DNA of 64,000 bases from Thermosulfurimonas sp. F29 (GTDB taxonomy: Bacteria; Desulfobacterota; Thermodesulfobacteria; Thermodesulfobacteriales; Thermodesulfobacteriaceae). Positions within the stretch are counted from its first letter, which is position 1. Each line of letters opens with the position of its first letter. The DNA is taken from the NCBI RefSeq assembly GCF_019688735.1, contig NZ_JAIFYA010000003.1:1-64000 (forward strand). Direction: 5' to 3'. The translations under genes were made by a program, and so were the position numbers. Below are positions 23,737 through 31,064 of the stretch, piece after piece. The notes under the pieces were generated by a model that saw nothing but the letters and a program-made list of their open reading frames with translations, was not told where the DNA came from and made no database searches.

Positions 23737-25176
23737 TTAGATTTTAAAATTGGATTTACCCACCCCTCCGCTGAGGGAGAGGGTCCTGCCCCAGGCTCCA
23801 GCAGAGCTTTTCCCCCGCAGGACCTTCACCATCCCCTCCAGCCACAGGGGAGTTGCCACCGCATGGACATGAGTATAAGTGCCGAAAATCCTTTTGTAAA
23901 CCGCTCCGTCACATCGCCCGTCGAAACCGAAACCCCGCTCCACCTCCAGCACCAGCCGCACTCTCCCGGGATCCTTTATACGGGGAAGAGAATAGTGAAA
24001 TTCATGCCCATGAATGAGAGCCCCCACCGGATAGAAGGGGTTTTCCTCCCGCACCCGCACCACCGTGTACCCGTGTCCCACGGGCCTCTCGCGGACCTCA
24101 AAATCAATGGGAAGCAACCCGCACATGGGAAAGCTCCGCCCCTTCCAGGAGACCGTCTCCCCTAGATACATCAGTCCTCCGCACTCCGCATAGATGGGCA
24201 GTCCCTCCTCTCCGGCCTCGCGCAGATCCCGGAGAAAGGAACGATTTTCGGAAAGGGCCTCGGCCTGCGTTTCCGGGAACCCTCCACCTATGTAAAGGGC
24301 ATGAATCTCGGGCAAACGCGCATCCCGCAGGGCGTCGAGATAGACCAGCTTTGCCCCCAGAACTTCCAGGGCCTCAAGATTTTCCGGATAATAAAACTGA
24401 AAGGCCCGATCCCGCAAAACACCGATGCGCATTCCGGAAAGCTCGGAGGAGGCTTCCCACAGACCCTCCCCGGATATATTCAGGGGAGAGGCATCTCCGG
24501 CAATCTCCAGAACCCTATCCAGATCCAGGTTTTCCAGAAGGACCTCCTCCAGCATTCCGAAAAGCTCCTCCTCGGCCCGGAATTCCTGCCAGGGCACCAG
24601 ACCTAGATGTCTTTCCGGAAAAGGGAACCGGAGTCTGGGTAGAGCTCCCAAAACGGGTACCCCGGTGTAGTGTTCGATGGATCGGGTGATGATGGTTTCG
24701 TGTCGGACCCGGGCCACGCGGTTGAGCACCACTCCGCGTAAAACCACCCCCTCTTCAAAACTCTGGAATCCGTGAACCAGAGCCGCGAGACTCCGCGTAA
24801 CCTTGGTACAATCCAGAACCAGGATCACCGGAGCTCGAAGGAGACGGGCCAGACGGGCGGTACTGCACGAGCCCTCGAGATCCACTCCGTCGAATAGTCC
24901 CCGGTTGCCCTCCACCACCGCCAGATCCGCTCCCCGTGCCCCCACCGAAAAGAGCCTCAGAATCTGGCGGTCCGTCATGAGGAAGGGATCCAGGTTCCGA
25001 CAGGGATGCCCGGATGCCCGAGAAAGCCAGCCGGCGTCGATGTAATCCGGCCCTTTCTTGAAGGGAGCCACACGATACCCCCTCCGGGATAAGACCCGGA
25101 GGAGACCGAGGGTGAGAAGGGTCTTTCCCGCTCCCCCCTTCTGGGCCGATATGACAAGGCGTGGAATCGAAATCAT
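23737..25176 (-). CDS. dsrN: DsrN/CbiA-type amidase (siroheme or cobyrinate a,c-diamide synthase)
   Basis: About 479 residues. An N-terminal dethiobiotin-synthetase-like ATPase domain has the P-loop SAQKGGAGKT; the C-terminal glutamine amidotransferase domain has nucleophile Cys in YAECGGLMYL and His in HGHEFHYS. Homologues amidate cobyrinate (CbiA) or siroheme (DsrN). The position beside the dsr genes and the following ferredoxin, as in Desulfovibrio, favours DsrN, which makes siroheme amide for dissimilatory sulfite reductase; this is inferred from context, and no cobalamin genes are nearby. I prefer the ATG at 25176, six bases after AGGA, to a TTG 39 bases upstream. Confidence 0.82.
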   Translation of the reverse strand: MISIPRLVISAQKGGAGKTLLTLGLLRVLSRRGYRVAPFKKGPDYIDAGWLSRASGHPCRNLDPFLMTDRQILRLFSVGARGADLAVVEGNRGLFDGVDLEGSCSTARLARLLRAPVILVLDCTKVTRSLAALVHGFQSFEEGVVLRGVVLNRVARVRHETIITRSIEHYTGVPVLGALPRLRFPFPERHLGLVPWQEFRAEEELFGMLEEVLLENLDLDRVLEIAGDASPLNISGEGLWEASSELSGMRIGVLRDRAFQFYYPENLEALEVLGAKLVYLDALRDARLPEIHALYIGGGFPETQAEALSENRSFLRDLREAGEEGLPIYAECGGLMYLGETVSWKGRSFPMCGLLPIDFEVRERPVGHGYTVVRVREENPFYPVGALIHGHEFHYSLPRIKDPGRVRLVLEVERGFGFDGRCDGAVYKRIFGTYTHVHAVATPLWLEGMVKVLRGKSSAGAWGRTLSLSGGVGKSNFKI

Positions 25177-25186
25177 AATCGGTCCT

Positions 25187-25215
25187 ACTTTAGCTTCAAA
25201 TCTTCCCGAAGGCAA
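25187..25215 (-). promoter_or_regulatory. Candidate promoter of dsrN-ferredoxin
   Basis: TTGCCT and TAAAGT hexamers on the minus strand are separated by 17 bases, directly after the dsrP terminator. The predicted start of transcription is about four bases before the dsrN ATG. Confidence 0.4.
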
Positions 25216-25250
25216 AAATAAAAAAGCCCGGAGATCCTTCCTCTCCGGGC
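25216..25250 (-). terminator. Rho-independent terminator after dsrP
   Basis: A perfect 9-bp stem, GCCCGGAGA paired with TCTCCGGGC, with a seven-base loop is followed on the minus strand by a T run. It lies 33 bases past the dsrP stop and should end the dsrMKJOP transcript before dsrN. Confidence 0.85.
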
Positions 25251-25282: not shown

Positions 25283-26440
25283 CTAGGCAGCACGAGCTTC
25301 CTTTACGGCCACGGCAATCTTGAAAAGCACGGTCATAATCAGAAAACCAACCGCCCAGATACCCAGCGAGATTAAAAGCTCTGGTACCGTGGGACGATAG
25401 GGAGTAACGGTCTCAAAAGGAGTGGGGGTAAAACCACCCGTAAGAAGCCCGATACCCTTGTCAATCCAGGCCCCGATAAAAAGCATGATACAGGCCAGAA
25501 CCAGGGTATTTATGTTCTTACGGGTCGCCGGGATTACGAGCAGTAGAGCCGCCCCCGCCATTAGCAGCCAGGCCATCCACATGAAAATCACCCACTCCGC
25601 ATGCCCCTCAAGTCCTCTAAAGAGATAAATGAGGGAGGCCTTATGTCCCGGAATGTTACTGTAAAAAGCGGTGAAGAGCTCACAACCGAAGAAGAAGATA
25701 TTGGCCAGAAGGGCATAGGTGATGATCTTACTCAGGGTATCGATGGCCATGGGATCCACACGAAAACGGGAGACCTTCTGAGCAATGAGAAGGGCAATGA
25801 GAAGAAGAGCCGGACCCGAACAGAAAGCCGAAGCCAGAAACCGGGGAGCCATAATGGCCGTAAGCCAGAAGTGTCTTCCGGGAAGACCGGCGTACAGAAA
25901 AGCCGTAACCGTGTGGATGCTAAACGCCCAGGGAATAGAAAGGTATATGAAGGGCACCACCCAACGGGGATACTTCACCCCCTTGTACTCCCCGTGAAGA
26001 GCCGCCCACCCGCAAATCACATTGAGCGCCAGGTACCCGTTAAGAACGATCATGTCATAAAAGAGCATGGAATGAGGAGTGGGATGGAGCAGGACATTAA
26101 AGAGCCGGTGCGTCTGTCCGATGTCCACAATAATGAAGAGAAGACACATAATTACCGCGGCGATGGCCAGAAACTCGCCGAAGACCGTAACCGGCCCGAA
26201 AACTTTATGATTATGAAGATAGTAAGGGAGCACCACCATCACTCCCGAGGCCGCCACCCCCACCAGAAAGGTAAACTGAGCCACATAAAACCCCCAGGAC
26301 ACATCCCGGCTCATCCCGGTGATACCCAGACCGTACTGGAGCTGGGCCAGAAAGGCCAGAAACCCTATAAGAATAAGTACCCCCAGAAAGGCCAGCCACA
26401 ACCAGTATTTTCTGCTCCCTACCAAAGCCTTTTCAAACAT
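25283..26440 (-). CDS. dsrP: Sulfite reduction complex membrane subunit DsrP (NrfD family)
   Basis: A 385-residue polytopic protein with about ten membrane helices, of the NrfD/PsrC family. Residues such as RDVSWGFYVAQFTFLVG and the HxxH-like loop TPHSMLFYD fit DsrP. It exchanges electrons between quinones and the periplasmic partners DsrJ and DsrO. It is the last gene of the dsrMKJOP operon, 27 bases after dsrO and just ahead of a strong terminator. Confidence 0.95.
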   Translation of the reverse strand: MFEKALVGSRKYWLWLAFLGVLILIGFLAFLAQLQYGLGITGMSRDVSWGFYVAQFTFLVGVAASGVMVVLPYYLHNHKVFGPVTVFGEFLAIAAVIMCLLFIIVDIGQTHRLFNVLLHPTPHSMLFYDMIVLNGYLALNVICGWAALHGEYKGVKYPRWVVPFIYLSIPWAFSIHTVTAFLYAGLPGRHFWLTAIMAPRFLASAFCSGPALLLIALLIAQKVSRFRVDPMAIDTLSKIITYALLANIFFFGCELFTAFYSNIPGHKASLIYLFRGLEGHAEWVIFMWMAWLLMAGAALLLVIPATRKNINTLVLACIMLFIGAWIDKGIGLLTGGFTPTPFETVTPYRPTVPELLISLGIWAVGFLIMTVLFKIAVAVKEARAA

Positions 26441-26467: not shown

Positions 26468-27235
26468 TTAACCGATCAGGTAAAACACCGAAGGCCCGGT
26501 GCCAAGTTCAGCCTTACGGCGAATGGAAAACCTCGACCGGAGCAACCGGCTTATCTCGGAATTCTCGTCCTCAAGATCTCCGAAGATCAGCGCCTTGTGC
26601 TTGCAGGCCTCCACGCACGCCGGAATCTGCCCCTTCTCCAGCCTTTCGTAACAGAAGAGACACTTCTCCACCACACCCTTCATCCGGGTGGGAAACTCCG
26701 GATTGAAGTGCTCGATGTAGGGTCGGGGGTCCACCCAGTTGAAACTCCGGGCCCCGAAGGGACAGGCCGCCATACAGAACCGGCAACCAATGCAACGGTG
26801 ATAATCCATCATCACGATACCGTCTTCCCGCTTGAAGGTCGCCTGGGTGGGACACACCCGCACGCAGGGAGGATGTTCACAGTGGTTACAGAGCAGAAGA
26901 AAGGGTTTATGCGCAAGCAGGATATTGTTAAATTCATTGGGTTTGTCCGGAAATACATGCTCGAATTCATCCTTCCAGATCCACTTCACCTCCCGCTTGC
27001 GATCCGGGATGTGCGGAACATTGTGAATGTAATGACAGGCCTTTATACAGTCATTACACTCGGGATGTTCCCAGCACTTCTTTATATCAATGGCCATTCC
27101 CCACCGCCTGGCCGTAAGCGCACCCGGGGGTGGCGTATATGCCTTGGCCTTCACCTCCCGGTTGAAAAATCCCGGCACCCCCCCGGCCAGAGTCGCCGAA
27201 ATCGCCGCCAGCTTCAAAAATTTTCTTCTGTCCAT
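26468..27235 (-). CDS. dsrO: Periplasmic iron-sulfur protein DsrO
   Basis: A 255-residue ferredoxin-like protein. The N-terminus DRRKFLKLAAISATLAGG is a twin-arginine-type signal. Cysteine clusters follow: CWEHPECNDCIKACH, CNHCEHPPCVRVCP, CIGCRFCMAACP and CLFCYERLEKG...CVEAC, as expected for up to four [4Fe-4S] centres. DsrO passes electrons between DsrJ and DsrP on the periplasmic side. It is 30 bases downstream of dsrJ. Confidence 0.95.
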   Translation of the reverse strand: MDRRKFLKLAAISATLAGGVPGFFNREVKAKAYTPPPGALTARRWGMAIDIKKCWEHPECNDCIKACHYIHNVPHIPDRKREVKWIWKDEFEHVFPDKPNEFNNILLAHKPFLLLCNHCEHPPCVRVCPTQATFKREDGIVMMDYHRCIGCRFCMAACPFGARSFNWVDPRPYIEHFNPEFPTRMKGVVEKCLFCYERLEKGQIPACVEACKHKALIFGDLEDENSEISRLLRSRFSIRRKAELGTGPSVFYLIG

Positions 27236-27265: not shown

Positions 27266-27718
27266 CTATTCTTCGGTATTTTTCGTTCCTACCAGTTTAG
27301 GCGGCACATGAAACAATCGCAGTAACCTGGAGGCCCTGGGTTCCTCAAACTTCTTCGTCTCCGGAGGAATGTGGCAGTTCCAGCAATAGGGCTCCACCGC
27401 CGCAAACCTGTGACAGCGGTCACAGAACTTACTTTTATCGTGATGGCACTTCATACATCCGTTCTGCAGACTGATCCAAAAACGTTTCCCGTCCGAAGAG
27501 GTGTAAATCCGCATCCCCTCCCGAATAGCCTCGTTTCGCCACCGATTGAGAAGCTGCATGTGATGCGAGCGCATGTAAGCCTTGGACTCCACACAGCGCC
27601 CTTTGGGCAACTCCGGCTGAGGCGCCGCCACCGTCTTGGCGTGATTCCACCAGATGGGAAACGTCACGAACAGAACGAAGATAATAATCCCCGGAATCAC
27701 CTTGTCGCTGTTGTACAT
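27266..27718 (-). CDS. dsrJ: Triheme cytochrome c subunit DsrJ
   Basis: A 150-residue protein with an N-terminal membrane anchor (about 7-23, IPGIIIFVLFVTFPIWW) and three haem c motifs in the middle: CMKCH, CDRCH and CWNCH (about residues 84-115). This is the diagnostic DsrJ pattern. It takes part in electron transfer with DsrO and DsrP at the periplasmic face. It follows dsrK by one base. Confidence 0.95.
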   Translation of the reverse strand: MYNSDKVIPGIIIFVLFVTFPIWWNHAKTVAAPQPELPKGRCVESKAYMRSHHMQLLNRWRNEAIREGMRIYTSSDGKRFWISLQNGCMKCHHDKSKFCDRCHRFAAVEPYCWNCHIPPETKKFEEPRASRLLRLFHVPPKLVGTKNTEE

Positions 27719-27719
27719 T

Positions 27720-29336
27720 TTAGGCCTCCTCCTCGGCTCCTTTTAAGGGCTGAAAACGAAGGTCGGTGGTGCGTTTCTTTTCGCCCGGTATCACCAGGGC
27801 GTTACCCACCAGTTCGTGCACGCCGCCCACACTCACCGCCGGCACCCAGTATTTCATAAGGGGTGTGAGCGTAGCTCGATCAATGGCACAGATGCAGGCC
27901 AGATGATTGACCCCGTGTTTCTCGTGCACATATTCCACGGCGTTGGCCCGGGGGAAACCACCCCGCATCCGCATCTCCATGTATTCGTCGGTATTGAGAC
28001 CGGATCCGCTTCCGCAGCAGAAGGTCTTCTCCCGAATGGTGTTTTCGGGCATCTCGTAAAAGTTGTTGCAGACATGCCTGAGGATGAAACGAGGCTCCTC
28101 AAAGATACCCATGCCCCGGGAGGTGTTGCAGGAGTCGTGGAAGGTGACCACCAGGTGATCGTTCCGACTGGGATCGAGCTCAAGCTTTCCGTGAGCGATG
28201 AGGTCCGCGGTAAATTCACAGATGTGGACGATCTTGGTGCTTTTCGCGTGCTCAAAAACCGTACCGGTTATGGGAGATTTGGGCACCTCCAGGTTCTTCG
28301 GCGCAGGCCCGAGCATGGTGTCCTCGTACTGGTGCACCACCCGCCACATGTGCCCGCACTCACCGCCCAGAATCCACTTGACCTTCAGACGCTCCGCCTC
28401 GTGATAGATCTTGGCGTGAAGCTTCCGCATCATCTCGTGTGAAGTAAAAAATCCAAAGTTTCCACCCTCGGCCGCATAAGTACTCAGCGTCCAGTCCAGA
28501 CCGAGATAGTGAAAGAGAAGCACATAACCCATGAAGGTGTAGATTCCGGGGTCGGCAAAGAAGTCCGCCGAGGGGGTCACGAAGAGGATCTCCGCCCCCT
28601 TCTTATTGAGGGGCACCTCGGGACGAATGCCGGTTATCTCCTCGATGTCGTCCAGCAAAAATTCAATGTTTTCCTTGATGGTGTGCGGCTGAAGGCCGAT
28701 GTGGTTTCCGATCTCCGCGGAAAAGCGCACCGGCTTGAGAATCCAGTCGATGTTCACCCCGATCTCGTGCAGGATCTCCCGGGCCAGAATGGTGATCTCC
28801 GCCGTGTCGATCCCGTAGGGACAGAAGACCGAGCAACGGCGGCACTCCGTACACTGATAGTAGTAATAAAACCACTCCTTGATTACATCCTCGGTGAGCT
28901 TCCGGGCCCCGGCCAGCCGCCCGAAAAGCTTCCCGCTCCGGGTAAACTCCCCCTTGACCACCGAACGCATGAGCTCCGCCCGGAGAACCGGCATGTTCTT
29001 GGGATCTCCGGTCCCCAGGAAGAAGTGACACTTGTCCGCACAGGCACCGCAGCGCACGCAGATATCCATAAAAAGCTTGAAGGACCGGAATCGATTCATC
29101 CGATCCCGGATGGCGTTTAGCACGATCTCCTTCCAGTTCTCGGGAAGCTTCCAGTCCTCGTCGTGGGGCTGCCACTTGCGGGGATTGGGAAGCCCCAGGT
29201 CCTTCACCACCTCCGGTTCGCCGGCATAACAGTAGGTGCCCGGACGAAACTCCGGCTTGGTGTCCATCCAGTGTTTTTCCGGCATCCGATCGTAATTTAC
29301 TTCCTTCAAGAGCTCGTCTCTTTTAGGTAGCGCCAT
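27720..29336 (-). CDS. dsrK: Cytoplasmic iron-sulfur subunit DsrK (HdrD-like)
   Basis: A 538-residue protein of the heterodisulfide-reductase D type. Two [4Fe-4S] motifs near the N-terminal third are CVRCGACADKC and CTECRRCSVFC. Cysteine-rich CCG-type motifs near the C-terminus (HDSCNTSRG, FCCGSGSG, ACICAIDRA) form the special catalytic cluster site. DsrK with DsrM reduces the DsrC trisulfide in sulfate reducers, drawing electrons from menaquinol. No dsrC or dsrAB is in this window. Confidence 0.96.
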   Translation of the reverse strand: MALPKRDELLKEVNYDRMPEKHWMDTKPEFRPGTYCYAGEPEVVKDLGLPNPRKWQPHDEDWKLPENWKEIVLNAIRDRMNRFRSFKLFMDICVRCGACADKCHFFLGTGDPKNMPVLRAELMRSVVKGEFTRSGKLFGRLAGARKLTEDVIKEWFYYYYQCTECRRCSVFCPYGIDTAEITILAREILHEIGVNIDWILKPVRFSAEIGNHIGLQPHTIKENIEFLLDDIEEITGIRPEVPLNKKGAEILFVTPSADFFADPGIYTFMGYVLLFHYLGLDWTLSTYAAEGGNFGFFTSHEMMRKLHAKIYHEAERLKVKWILGGECGHMWRVVHQYEDTMLGPAPKNLEVPKSPITGTVFEHAKSTKIVHICEFTADLIAHGKLELDPSRNDHLVVTFHDSCNTSRGMGIFEEPRFILRHVCNNFYEMPENTIREKTFCCGSGSGLNTDEYMEMRMRGGFPRANAVEYVHEKHGVNHLACICAIDRATLTPLMKYWVPAVSVGGVHELVGNALVIPGEKKRTTDLRFQPLKGAEEEA

Positions 29337-29351
29337 GGTTCAACCCCTTCT

Positions 29352-30365
29352 TTAGGATTTCTTTTCGTAACAGTCCTCGTCTATGGGCTGCCCGGACTCC
29401 TCAAGCTTGTCCTTAAACTTCTCCTGCCACTCGCAGTAAGTCAGGAACTTAGGCGGAACACCCTCCCACCACGGATTGATGTGCCGCACCCGACGGTTGT
29501 CGTTGGGAAGGTTGCGGGTGGGGCTGAAAAAGACCCCCACCATGTGCACCAGCTTGCTGAAGGGGAAGTAGGCCACCAGCACGCTGATGAAGAAAAGGTG
29601 CACGAAGAAAATCAGACCTATCCCCTGCGGCACCTTGGGATGCAGGGTCACCAGCCCCATGGTGAGCTCCTTAACCGAAACGAGATCCACCCGGAGGAAG
29701 TACCGCATGAGCATTCCGGAAATCACCAGACCGAAGATGAGAAAGAGCGGAAAGTAATCCGAAGCGTGCGAAATGTAGTTCACCTTGGCGTCCACCAGGC
29801 GCCGGAGAAGAAGGAAGGTAAGACCGGCCAGAATGGCCACATCGGTCATGTAAAGATGAGGTAGCCCTATGTGAAAGAAACTATCCACCGCATCAAGGGT
29901 CTTAATAAAACCGGGCACCGGATAAGAAAAGAGCCGGAAGTGCCGAATTAGAATAATGAAGAAAGACCAGTGGAAAAGGATGGCCCCCAGCCAAAGCCAC
30001 TTACTGGAACCGTAGTAGAGTTTCCGGCCCCGAAGATCGGCCCGCAGATTCCGGAAAAGCGACCGGAAGGCCAGAACCTCCAGGGCCATGCGCAACACCA
30101 CCTCGAAGTTGTTGGCCGGACTCTCCAGACGGCTGTGCTTGATCCAGGGAAGACTCTTCTGCTGCCCGCAGGTGGTGGTGATCTTGAAAGGCACAGGAGA
30201 CTTGGCCCAGTTCACCATCCGGTAAACCAGACCGATGAGGAAGGTAAGAAAGGCTGCGTAGGGTACCACCACCCCGAAAAGGGTGTAGAGCTTTAATACA
30301 CCGACCCCCAACCAGACCAAAATAACCATCCCGATGACGGCCACCAATGCGGCTACCACATTCAT
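29352..30365 (-). CDS. dsrM: Membrane cytochrome b subunit DsrM
   Basis: A 337-residue protein with about six membrane helices of the NarI type and several membrane histidines (FHWSFFIILIRHFRLF, THLHPK-like loop ATLHP) that can bind two haem b groups. It oxidises or reduces menaquinone for DsrK. It is the first structural gene of dsrMKJOP, 12 bases after the RsbRD-like gene and 15 bases before dsrK. Confidence 0.95.
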   Translation of the reverse strand: MNVVAALVAVIGMVILVWLGVGVLKLYTLFGVVVPYAAFLTFLIGLVYRMVNWAKSPVPFKITTTCGQQKSLPWIKHSRLESPANNFEVVLRMALEVLAFRSLFRNLRADLRGRKLYYGSSKWLWLGAILFHWSFFIILIRHFRLFSYPVPGFIKTLDAVDSFFHIGLPHLYMTDVAILAGLTFLLLRRLVDAKVNYISHASDYFPLFLIFGLVISGMLMRYFLRVDLVSVKELTMGLVTLHPKVPQGIGLIFFVHLFFISVLVAYFPFSKLVHMVGVFFSPTRNLPNDNRRVRHINPWWEGVPPKFLTYCEWQEKFKDKLEESGQPIDEDCYEKKS

Positions 30366-30377
30366 AGATCCCGACCC

Positions 30378-30938
30378 CTAGTGAGTTTTTTCGTTATAAG
30401 AAGCCTCCGGCGGGAGGCTCCCCTCCCTCTCGTCATAAAGATAACCCGCCCTCTTGAGAAGAAGATAAAGCCGGCTCTTCCACTCCTGAAACTTTATCTC
30501 GTTGAGCCTTTCCCGGGCCTCCATGTATTGATTAAAAGCCCGAAGCATAAAAGCATCAATACGATCCTCTACCTCCAACAATGCCTCCGGACCATACTGG
30601 CGCAAAATCTCCTCCCCTACCACCTCCCGAACCGCTGACTTCAGAAAAAAGAGAAAAGCCAGCGCCTCCGACGGCCTGCGACTCTGAACCGCCTCGATCT
30701 TAATAATACGGTCCAGATAATAATCCACCCTCTCCCAGGAAAGATCTCCCGCCAGCTGATTTACCAGACCCTTTAGCCCCTCCTCCAGCCGATACCCGAG
30801 AGGATTCTCGAAACGATCGGTTTCCCTCTTCAAAAAGCGAACCGTCTCCCTCGGGAAAGTCTCATACACCTTTTCCCGCAACACCTTAAAGAGAGAACTC
30901 TCATGCGCCTTGAGGATACGGGCCGCTTTTAAGGTCAT
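30378..30938 (-). CDS. RsbRD N-terminal-like protein at the head of the dsr operon
   Basis: About 186 residues, all helical and without membrane segments. The layout (LKVLREKVYETFPRETVRFLKRETDRFENPLGYRLEEG) resembles the RsbRD/RsbR N-terminal globin-like domain, which is found just upstream of dsrM in many sulfate reducers. RsbR-type domains act as sensors in stressosomes; here no partner STAS or kinase domain is attached, so a sensing role for the dsr operon is inferred. The ATG at 30938 follows GGGGAAG; a TTG 39 bases upstream is better read as a -35 box. Confidence 0.65.
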   Translation of the reverse strand: MTLKAARILKAHESSLFKVLREKVYETFPRETVRFLKRETDRFENPLGYRLEEGLKGLVNQLAGDLSWERVDYYLDRIIKIEAVQSRRPSEALAFLFFLKSAVREVVGEEILRQYGPEALLEVEDRIDAFMLRAFNQYMEARERLNEIKFQEWKSRLYLLLKRAGYLYDEREGSLPPEASYNEKTH

Positions 30939-30947
30939 GGCTTCCCC

Positions 30948-30977
30948 TTTAAAAGCAAAAAGCCGGGAGTCTGTCAA
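30948..30977 (-). promoter_or_regulatory. Candidate promoter of the dsrMKJOP operon
   Basis: A perfect TTGACA at 30972-30977 (minus strand) is followed after 18 bases by TTTAAA. The predicted start of transcription is about three bases before the ATG of the RsbRD-like gene. The upstream region to 31064 is A/T-rich, which could act as an UP element. Confidence 0.5.
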
Positions 30978-31064
30978 GGGAGCTAAAAGACAGTAATTTC
31001 CAAAAAATCGAATTTTTGTCCAACTATTTGAAAAAATTCTATTTTTTTTGGAAAATTACACTTG

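Follow-up and report, generated by a model that had tools for sequence, protein, structure and literature searches.

The gene dsrT and the operon dsrTMKJOP are already known, and the known DsrT proteins, which come from sulfate reducers and from green sulfur bacteria, share with the protein described here the place directly before dsrM and an RsbRD_N domain, the predicted fold of a Chlorobaculum copy also being similar. In the literature, dsrT is placed adjoining dsrM (PMC10504309), PMC5812927 lists it after dsrC and before dsrM in Thermodesulfovibrio yellowstonii, and the function of its product is given as unknown (PMC11406059); excerpts of PMC6018796 and PMC8359478 report that green sulfur bacteria need dsrT for the oxidation of sulfur compounds. 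Beyond the Dsr systems, the N-terminal domain of RsbR (2bnl) shares with DsrT its domain family, a similar predicted fold and a long helix after the globin-like part, and pXO2-61 and pXO1-118 are, like DsrT, free-standing sensor domains lacking an output domain, with no sequence link shown. The ligand expected of a pXO2-61-type sensor domain is a fatty acid or a comparable molecule, and DsrT resembles this type in predicted fold only. The two proteins are cited as auxiliary sporulation-control proteins in an excerpt of PMC8396549, whereas DsrT goes with a respiratory complex. Our literature search found no paper joining DsrT with RsbR, with the proviso that reference 8 of PMC10504309 may already describe the homology, none joining RsbRD with dsrM, and none mentioning DVU1291.

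The DNA analysed is a stretch of 64,000 nucleotides from Thermosulfurimonas sp. F29, referred to in its entirety as the window. A first-pass annotation, made from the sequence alone, had described an open reading frame at 30378-30977 as an RsbRD-like sensor-domain protein leading a dsrMKJOP operon. The frame does contain a real gene, bearing an RsbRD_N domain and lying ahead of dsrM, and this gene is, with near certainty, dsrT of dsrTMKJOP, a name which the annotation had missed. Its reading as a new gene is ruled out, dsrT having been named in several papers, and the window copy is an ordinary member of the known family. The genes of the operon are as follows.

30378..30938, minus strand: probable coding region of dsrT, ATG start, 186 aa
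30378-30977, minus strand: dsrT in the first-pass version, TTG start at 30977, which gives the 199-aa numbering
29352..30365, minus strand: dsrM (NF038037)
27720..29336, minus strand: dsrK (NF045796)
27266..27718, minus strand: dsrJ (NF038038)
26468..27235, minus strand: dsrO (NF045797)
25283..26440, minus strand: dsrP (NF045798)

The dsrM, K, J, O and P genes lie directly downstream of dsrT and all exceed their NCBIfam cut-offs, with intergenic gaps of 12 (T-M), 15 (M-K), 1 (K-J), 30 (J-O) and 27 nt (O-P). The operon position claimed in the annotation thus stands, with dsrT first and 12 nt upstream of a complete dsrMKJOP, and the spacing suggests that dsrT is co-transcribed with the five genes. 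The ATG at 30938, which is preceded by GGGGAA, is probably a better start than the TTG at 30977. Four further elements flank the operon.

30972..30977, minus strand: TTGACA, candidate -35 box, seen in the sequence and not called by promoter scans
30948..30953, minus strand: TTTAAA, weak candidate -10 box (by eye), with an 18-nt spacer and 9 nt before the ATG
30993..31059, no strand assigned: AT-rich inverted repeat separating dsrT from the DUF763 gene that precedes it, giving as RNA an AU-rich hairpin with z -3.0
25226..25250, minus strand: terminator-like stem and T run directly after dsrP, 9 pairs of which 7 are G-C, six T

A promoter with a perfect TTGACA had been proposed to precede the gene. 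The hexamer exists at 30977-30972, but it overlaps the TTG start, the candidate -10 box is weak, and promoter scans of the region did not call the site upstream of dsrT. Since the TTG of TTGACA is the start codon of the first-pass reading frame, the promoter and start readings are mutually exclusive. Among four members of the window's family viewed by eye, three (L092, L093, L094) have TTGACT, a 16-nt spacer and TATAAA shortly before dsrT, and in the fourth (L091) the TTGACT is not followed by a good -10 box; the arrangement in three of the four makes a promoter at the window site plausible and, if it is real, the leader in the window would consist of a few bases only. The inverted repeat farther upstream possibly serves as the terminator of the DUF763 gene, which is as likely as its being an operator. 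A shared operator was considered for this palindrome, and both its AU-rich hairpin and the occurrence of the exact pattern at one genome site only count against it. A DUF763-like gene (by eye) also precedes dsrT in L091, L092 and L094, and a different gene does so in L093.

At the other end of the operon, the terminator-like stem behind dsrP suggests that the natural unit is probably dsrTMKJOP, which the stem at 25226..25250 would close. A 66-nt segment containing it and a second hairpin has a folding z of -4.6, although terminator-like sites as a class are not enriched in the region (9 observed against 8.5 expected in shuffles). Behind the operon, with the stem in between, lies a gene of the cobyrinate a,c-diamide synthase family (23737-25215, 435.8 bits), which is dsrN-like.

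Two segments of the DsrT protein were delimited, both on the minus strand.

30618..30920, minus strand: RsbRD_N domain (PF14361), residues 20-120 in the 199-aa numbering
30450..30590, minus strand: long C-terminal helix, residues 130-176, from the model and conservation, with no STAS domain behind it

The RsbR-type N-terminal domain proposed for the protein is well supported by a Pfam search, in which PF14361 (RsbRD_N) matches at E 6.8e-11 and scores 43.2 bits where 24.3 is the cut-off, and nothing else in the 2.35-Mb genome matches this family. For comparison we assembled an alignment and profile, A1, from DsrT proteins of the window's phylum only; its 39 sequences were chosen from 77 ORF matches, leaving out genes retrieved twice, near duplicates, L088 (with an unclear start) and proteins in which RsbRD_N is joined to STAS; a second alignment, A2, of 30 sequences was chosen likewise and includes six of the eight Chlorobi copies described below. 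All 39 proteins of A1 match PF14361 at E up to 0.01. One protein at a contig edge (L002, G102) has the top RsbRD_N score among the matches listed, yet scores 16 bits with the A1 profile, and was left out of the DsrT counts. The Pfam matches of the window protein include no DNA-binding, kinase or STAS domain; weak matches to SLIDE, a DNA-binding model (0.0047), and to Sigma70_r2 (0.0077), in one of the 39 members each, are probably due to chance. Conservation of the long C-terminal helix has a mean of 0.58, other helical regions ranging from 0.45 to 0.70, so that the helix is conserved to much the same degree as the sensor part. A plasmid collection gave no match.

AlphaFold models were obtained for the window protein (pLDDT 90.8, pTM 0.81) and for DsrT of Chlorobaculum thiosulfatiphilum (pLDDT 92.6, pTM 0.82), and both consist of helices throughout, the last of them long. 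The comparison with RsbR, suggested as a check by the first-pass annotation, yields a resembling fold: the RsbR N-domain (2bnl_B) matches the window model with a Z of 11.5 (rmsd 3.3, 126 aligned) and the Chlorobaculum model with a Z of 12.8 (rmsd 3.1, 119 aligned). Scores for pXO2-61 and pXO1-118 (3pmc, 3pmd) are 11.9 and 11.0 with the window model and 11.1 and 11.7 with the Chlorobaculum model, and globin-coupled sensors and phycobiliproteins are found lower down. The matches at Z 9-13 are mostly globin-like chains, but the tool cautions that such values can also arise between helical proteins that are not related. The resemblance is weak in Foldseek, where the best E is 0.14 and nothing is found at 0.001 or better. 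By sequence, DsrT by itself matches no solved structure at an E of 1 or lower, the best E with the DsrT profile is 0.55, and none is found for DsrK or for DsrM. The Pfam match, the two models from distant sequences and the mostly globin-like match lists together suggest a fold resembling a non-haem, globin-like sensor domain of the RsbR type.

We then surveyed 297 genomes of the window's phylum, taking matches at E up to 0.001, and found RsbRD_N in 185 and DsrM in 167. Linkage was counted with the 150 RsbRD_N matches listed and the first 140 DsrM matches, the latter being 139 over the cut-off and one below it (G167), with weaker DsrM matches dropped. Among these matches, RsbRD_N is directly upstream of DsrM and on the same strand at 128 of 140 DsrM places, and dsrT is present in most dsr loci of the phylum; neither of the two findings that the annotation named as counting against the idea, absence from other dsr loci and a different predicted fold, is thus seen. 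The remaining 12 places comprise three that adjoin, two at contig ends, three with dsrT elsewhere and four with none. In G269 the dsrT-dsrM pair is split across both ends of a one-contig genome, and in G024 and G062 a diverged dsrT copy is directly upstream of dsrM. In G070 and G091 dsrT is near a contig end and DsrM starts another contig, making adjacency ambiguous. Three genomes of family f56 (G177, G224 and G286, with loci L196, L077 and L078) have dsrT away from dsrM. By eye, dsrT of L077 and L078 is on the contig that carries dsrA and has a flavin-reductase-like gene next to it, and dsrM is beside a CO dehydrogenase-like gene in G224 and G286.

The contig of one further genome (G113, 76% complete) stops at dsrM, and DsrT was not found in that genome. 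Three genomes of family f32 (G030, G067, G229; L062, L065, L066, L192) contain DsrM, DsrP and DsrA but nothing that the DsrT profile matches; each has a weak RsbRD_N match (E 1.0e-6 to 1.7e-4), outside the matches listed by position. A second pair of cytochrome-b and DsrK-like genes stands directly before dsrM in f32 (by eye). A tie between DsrT and the N-terminal segment of DsrK was also considered and was rejected, the segment being present both with DsrT and without it (L192 being an example of the latter).

One genome of the survey appears to separate the membrane complex from the sulfite reductase. In G287, a single contig and 99% complete, the order is dsrC-dsrT-dsrMKJOP (L081 2073-7486, G287:C1), with M and P assigned by family match and C, K, J and O by eye. 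The search covered DsrA, and the best score in this genome, 46 bits, is below the cut-off, so that G287 apparently has the membrane complex without the sulfite reductase.

Chlorobi, which are described as sulfur oxidisers in an excerpt of PMC10504309, were reached through a chlorosome gene, and 10 of 80 loci were chosen (Chlorobaculum tepidum is not among the loci). Eight of the ten Chlorobi-titled genomes have DsrM and the same eight have DsrT, while the two without DsrM, one of which is Chlorobium ferrooxidans, have no DsrT match. The A1 profile, built from the window's phylum only, picks out the gene next to dsrM in all eight DsrM-bearing genomes, and in all eight dsrT overlaps dsrM by 4 nt. 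DsrT of C. thiosulfatiphilum scores 26.2 bits with PF14361, for which the cut-off is 24.3. In Chlorobi the protein is shorter and has no NPVG loop, and the window's family differs from known DsrT in lacking a cysteine that is found in 29 of 39 members, with no other substantive difference. With dsrT kept in sulfur-oxidising Chlorobi and in G287, which has no DsrA match over the cut-off, DsrT seems to follow DsrMKJOP rather than DsrAB.

What does DsrT do for this complex? Its kinship with RsbR, and the stressosomes mentioned in the first-pass annotation, invite the idea that it serves a stressosome (RsbR-RsbS-RsbT) as sensor arm, with an output that acts on the Dsr system. The RsbR-type N-terminal domain and the similar predicted fold speak for it, and proteins joining RsbRD_N to STAS do occur here and there in the phylum (L003, L009); in both of these loci (G018:C31 and G182:C50, respectively) a second STAS match is beside the RsbRD_N-STAS protein, as in a stressosome pair. 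However, DsrT differs from stressosome RsbR in that it ends after the long helix with no STAS domain, by Pfam and in the model, in the lack of a STAS partner in the window genome, and in its linkage to dsrM. PF01740 is found in none of eight genomes (the window genome and seven family members) and in 8 of 20 genomes elsewhere, PF13466 (STAS_2) is likewise found in none of the eight, and matches to the kinase family PF13581 in the window genome are confined to frames of at least 358 aa, which are not RsbT-sized; one family member (G227) has a PF13581 match in a 130-aa frame. With the A1 profile the RsbRD_N-STAS proteins score 37-38 bits against 61 or more for DsrT proteins. We regard a stressosome role as the least credible of the readings considered and reject it for the window's family, there being no STAS domain in the protein or in any of the eight genomes. 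Scarcely more credible is a globin-coupled type of sensor that would detect gas or redox state through bound haem, haem having been put forward as a possible ligand. The structural matches to the DsrT models do include globin-coupled sensor domains, but the top matches include the RsbR N-domain, pXO2-61 and pXO1-118, which are not known to bind haem. No alignment column has histidine in more than 5 of the 39 DsrT proteins, and 6 of these proteins are devoid of histidine; with no conserved residue to hold haem, conserved haem ligation in DsrT is unlikely, and the haem sensor was rejected on this ground.

A sulfur-handling partnership with DsrC or DsrK through a conserved cysteine in the long helix was also weighed. 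Cysteine occupies the residue-154 place in 29 of the 39 proteins, and dsrC is directly before dsrT in L081 (by eye) and in T. yellowstonii, according to the available part of PMC5812927. Against this, the window protein has no cysteine, and four aligned family members have tyrosine at the same place, so that the cysteine was not accepted as a functional residue and the proposal is improbable. Control of expression, by a DsrT that senses a signal and acts through an unnamed partner on dsrMKJOP transcription or translation, is a more serious candidate, although we still consider it rather unlikely. An excerpt of PMC10504309 states that DsrT may, from homology, regulate dsrMKJOP expression, and excerpts of PMC13047784 and PMC9326234 restate a regulatory role; moreover, RsbRD_N is a regulatory family, dsrT heads the operon, and the genetic data from Chlorobi would also fit an expression role. 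The domains through which such control might act (DNA-binding, kinase or STAS) are lacking from the Pfam matches of the window protein, however, a STAS partner was not found in the window genome and seven family members, and dsrT accompanies DsrM alike in the window's phylum and in Chlorobi.

We rank ahead of expression control, and give about an even chance to, the reading in which DsrT is a cytoplasmic accessory factor acting directly on the assembly or activity of DsrMKJOP by protein contact. It is favoured because of the linkage to dsrM, the gene overlap in Chlorobi, the presence in both phyla and the arrangement in G287; the linkage, the Chlorobi copies and G287 together tie DsrT to the membrane complex, and not to DsrAB or to one metabolic direction. 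The f32 genomes (3 of 140), with DsrM, DsrP and DsrA and no match to the DsrT profile, count against a direct-contact role. DsrT is not an obligatory linked subunit, since in three genomes dsrT is away from dsrM. Purified DsrMKJOP of Desulfovibrio is said to contain five subunits, with DsrT absent. Nor is a stoichiometric subunit suggested by Desulfurivibrio alkaliphilus, in which dsrT expression is below that of most sulfur genes according to the available part of PMC13047784.

A plausible course of events under the direct-contact reading is that DsrT, predicted to be a soluble all-helical protein composed of a haem-free, globin-like RsbR-type domain and a long conserved helix with no output domain, would be made next to DsrM, dimerise through the long helix and contact the DsrMKJOP complex on its cytoplasmic side, where it could help the complex to assemble or set its activity; the sensor domain would perhaps respond to a small bound ligand. 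A more specific form, which we put forward only tentatively and hold to be slightly more probable than expression control, is that DsrT is a dedicated ligand sensor, in which the non-haem domain binds a cytoplasmic small molecule and the long helix gates or licenses DsrMKJOP assembly, an RsbR-type sensor having moved from gene regulation to the control of a respiratory enzyme.

The reading offered by the first-pass annotation is thus retained in its RsbR-type domain, its similar predicted fold, its operon position and its presence at dsr loci, and set aside as regards the stressosome and haem. DsrMKJOP supplies the final step of sulfate respiration with electrons, and DsrT accompanies this complex across the window's phylum and Chlorobi. 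The confident predicted fold, the lack of stressosome partners in the window's family and the linkage to dsrM sharpen what has been a vague "regulatory" label, and with this sharper hypothesis a possible binding of DsrT to DsrM or DsrK, and a possible ligand of its pocket, become direct questions.
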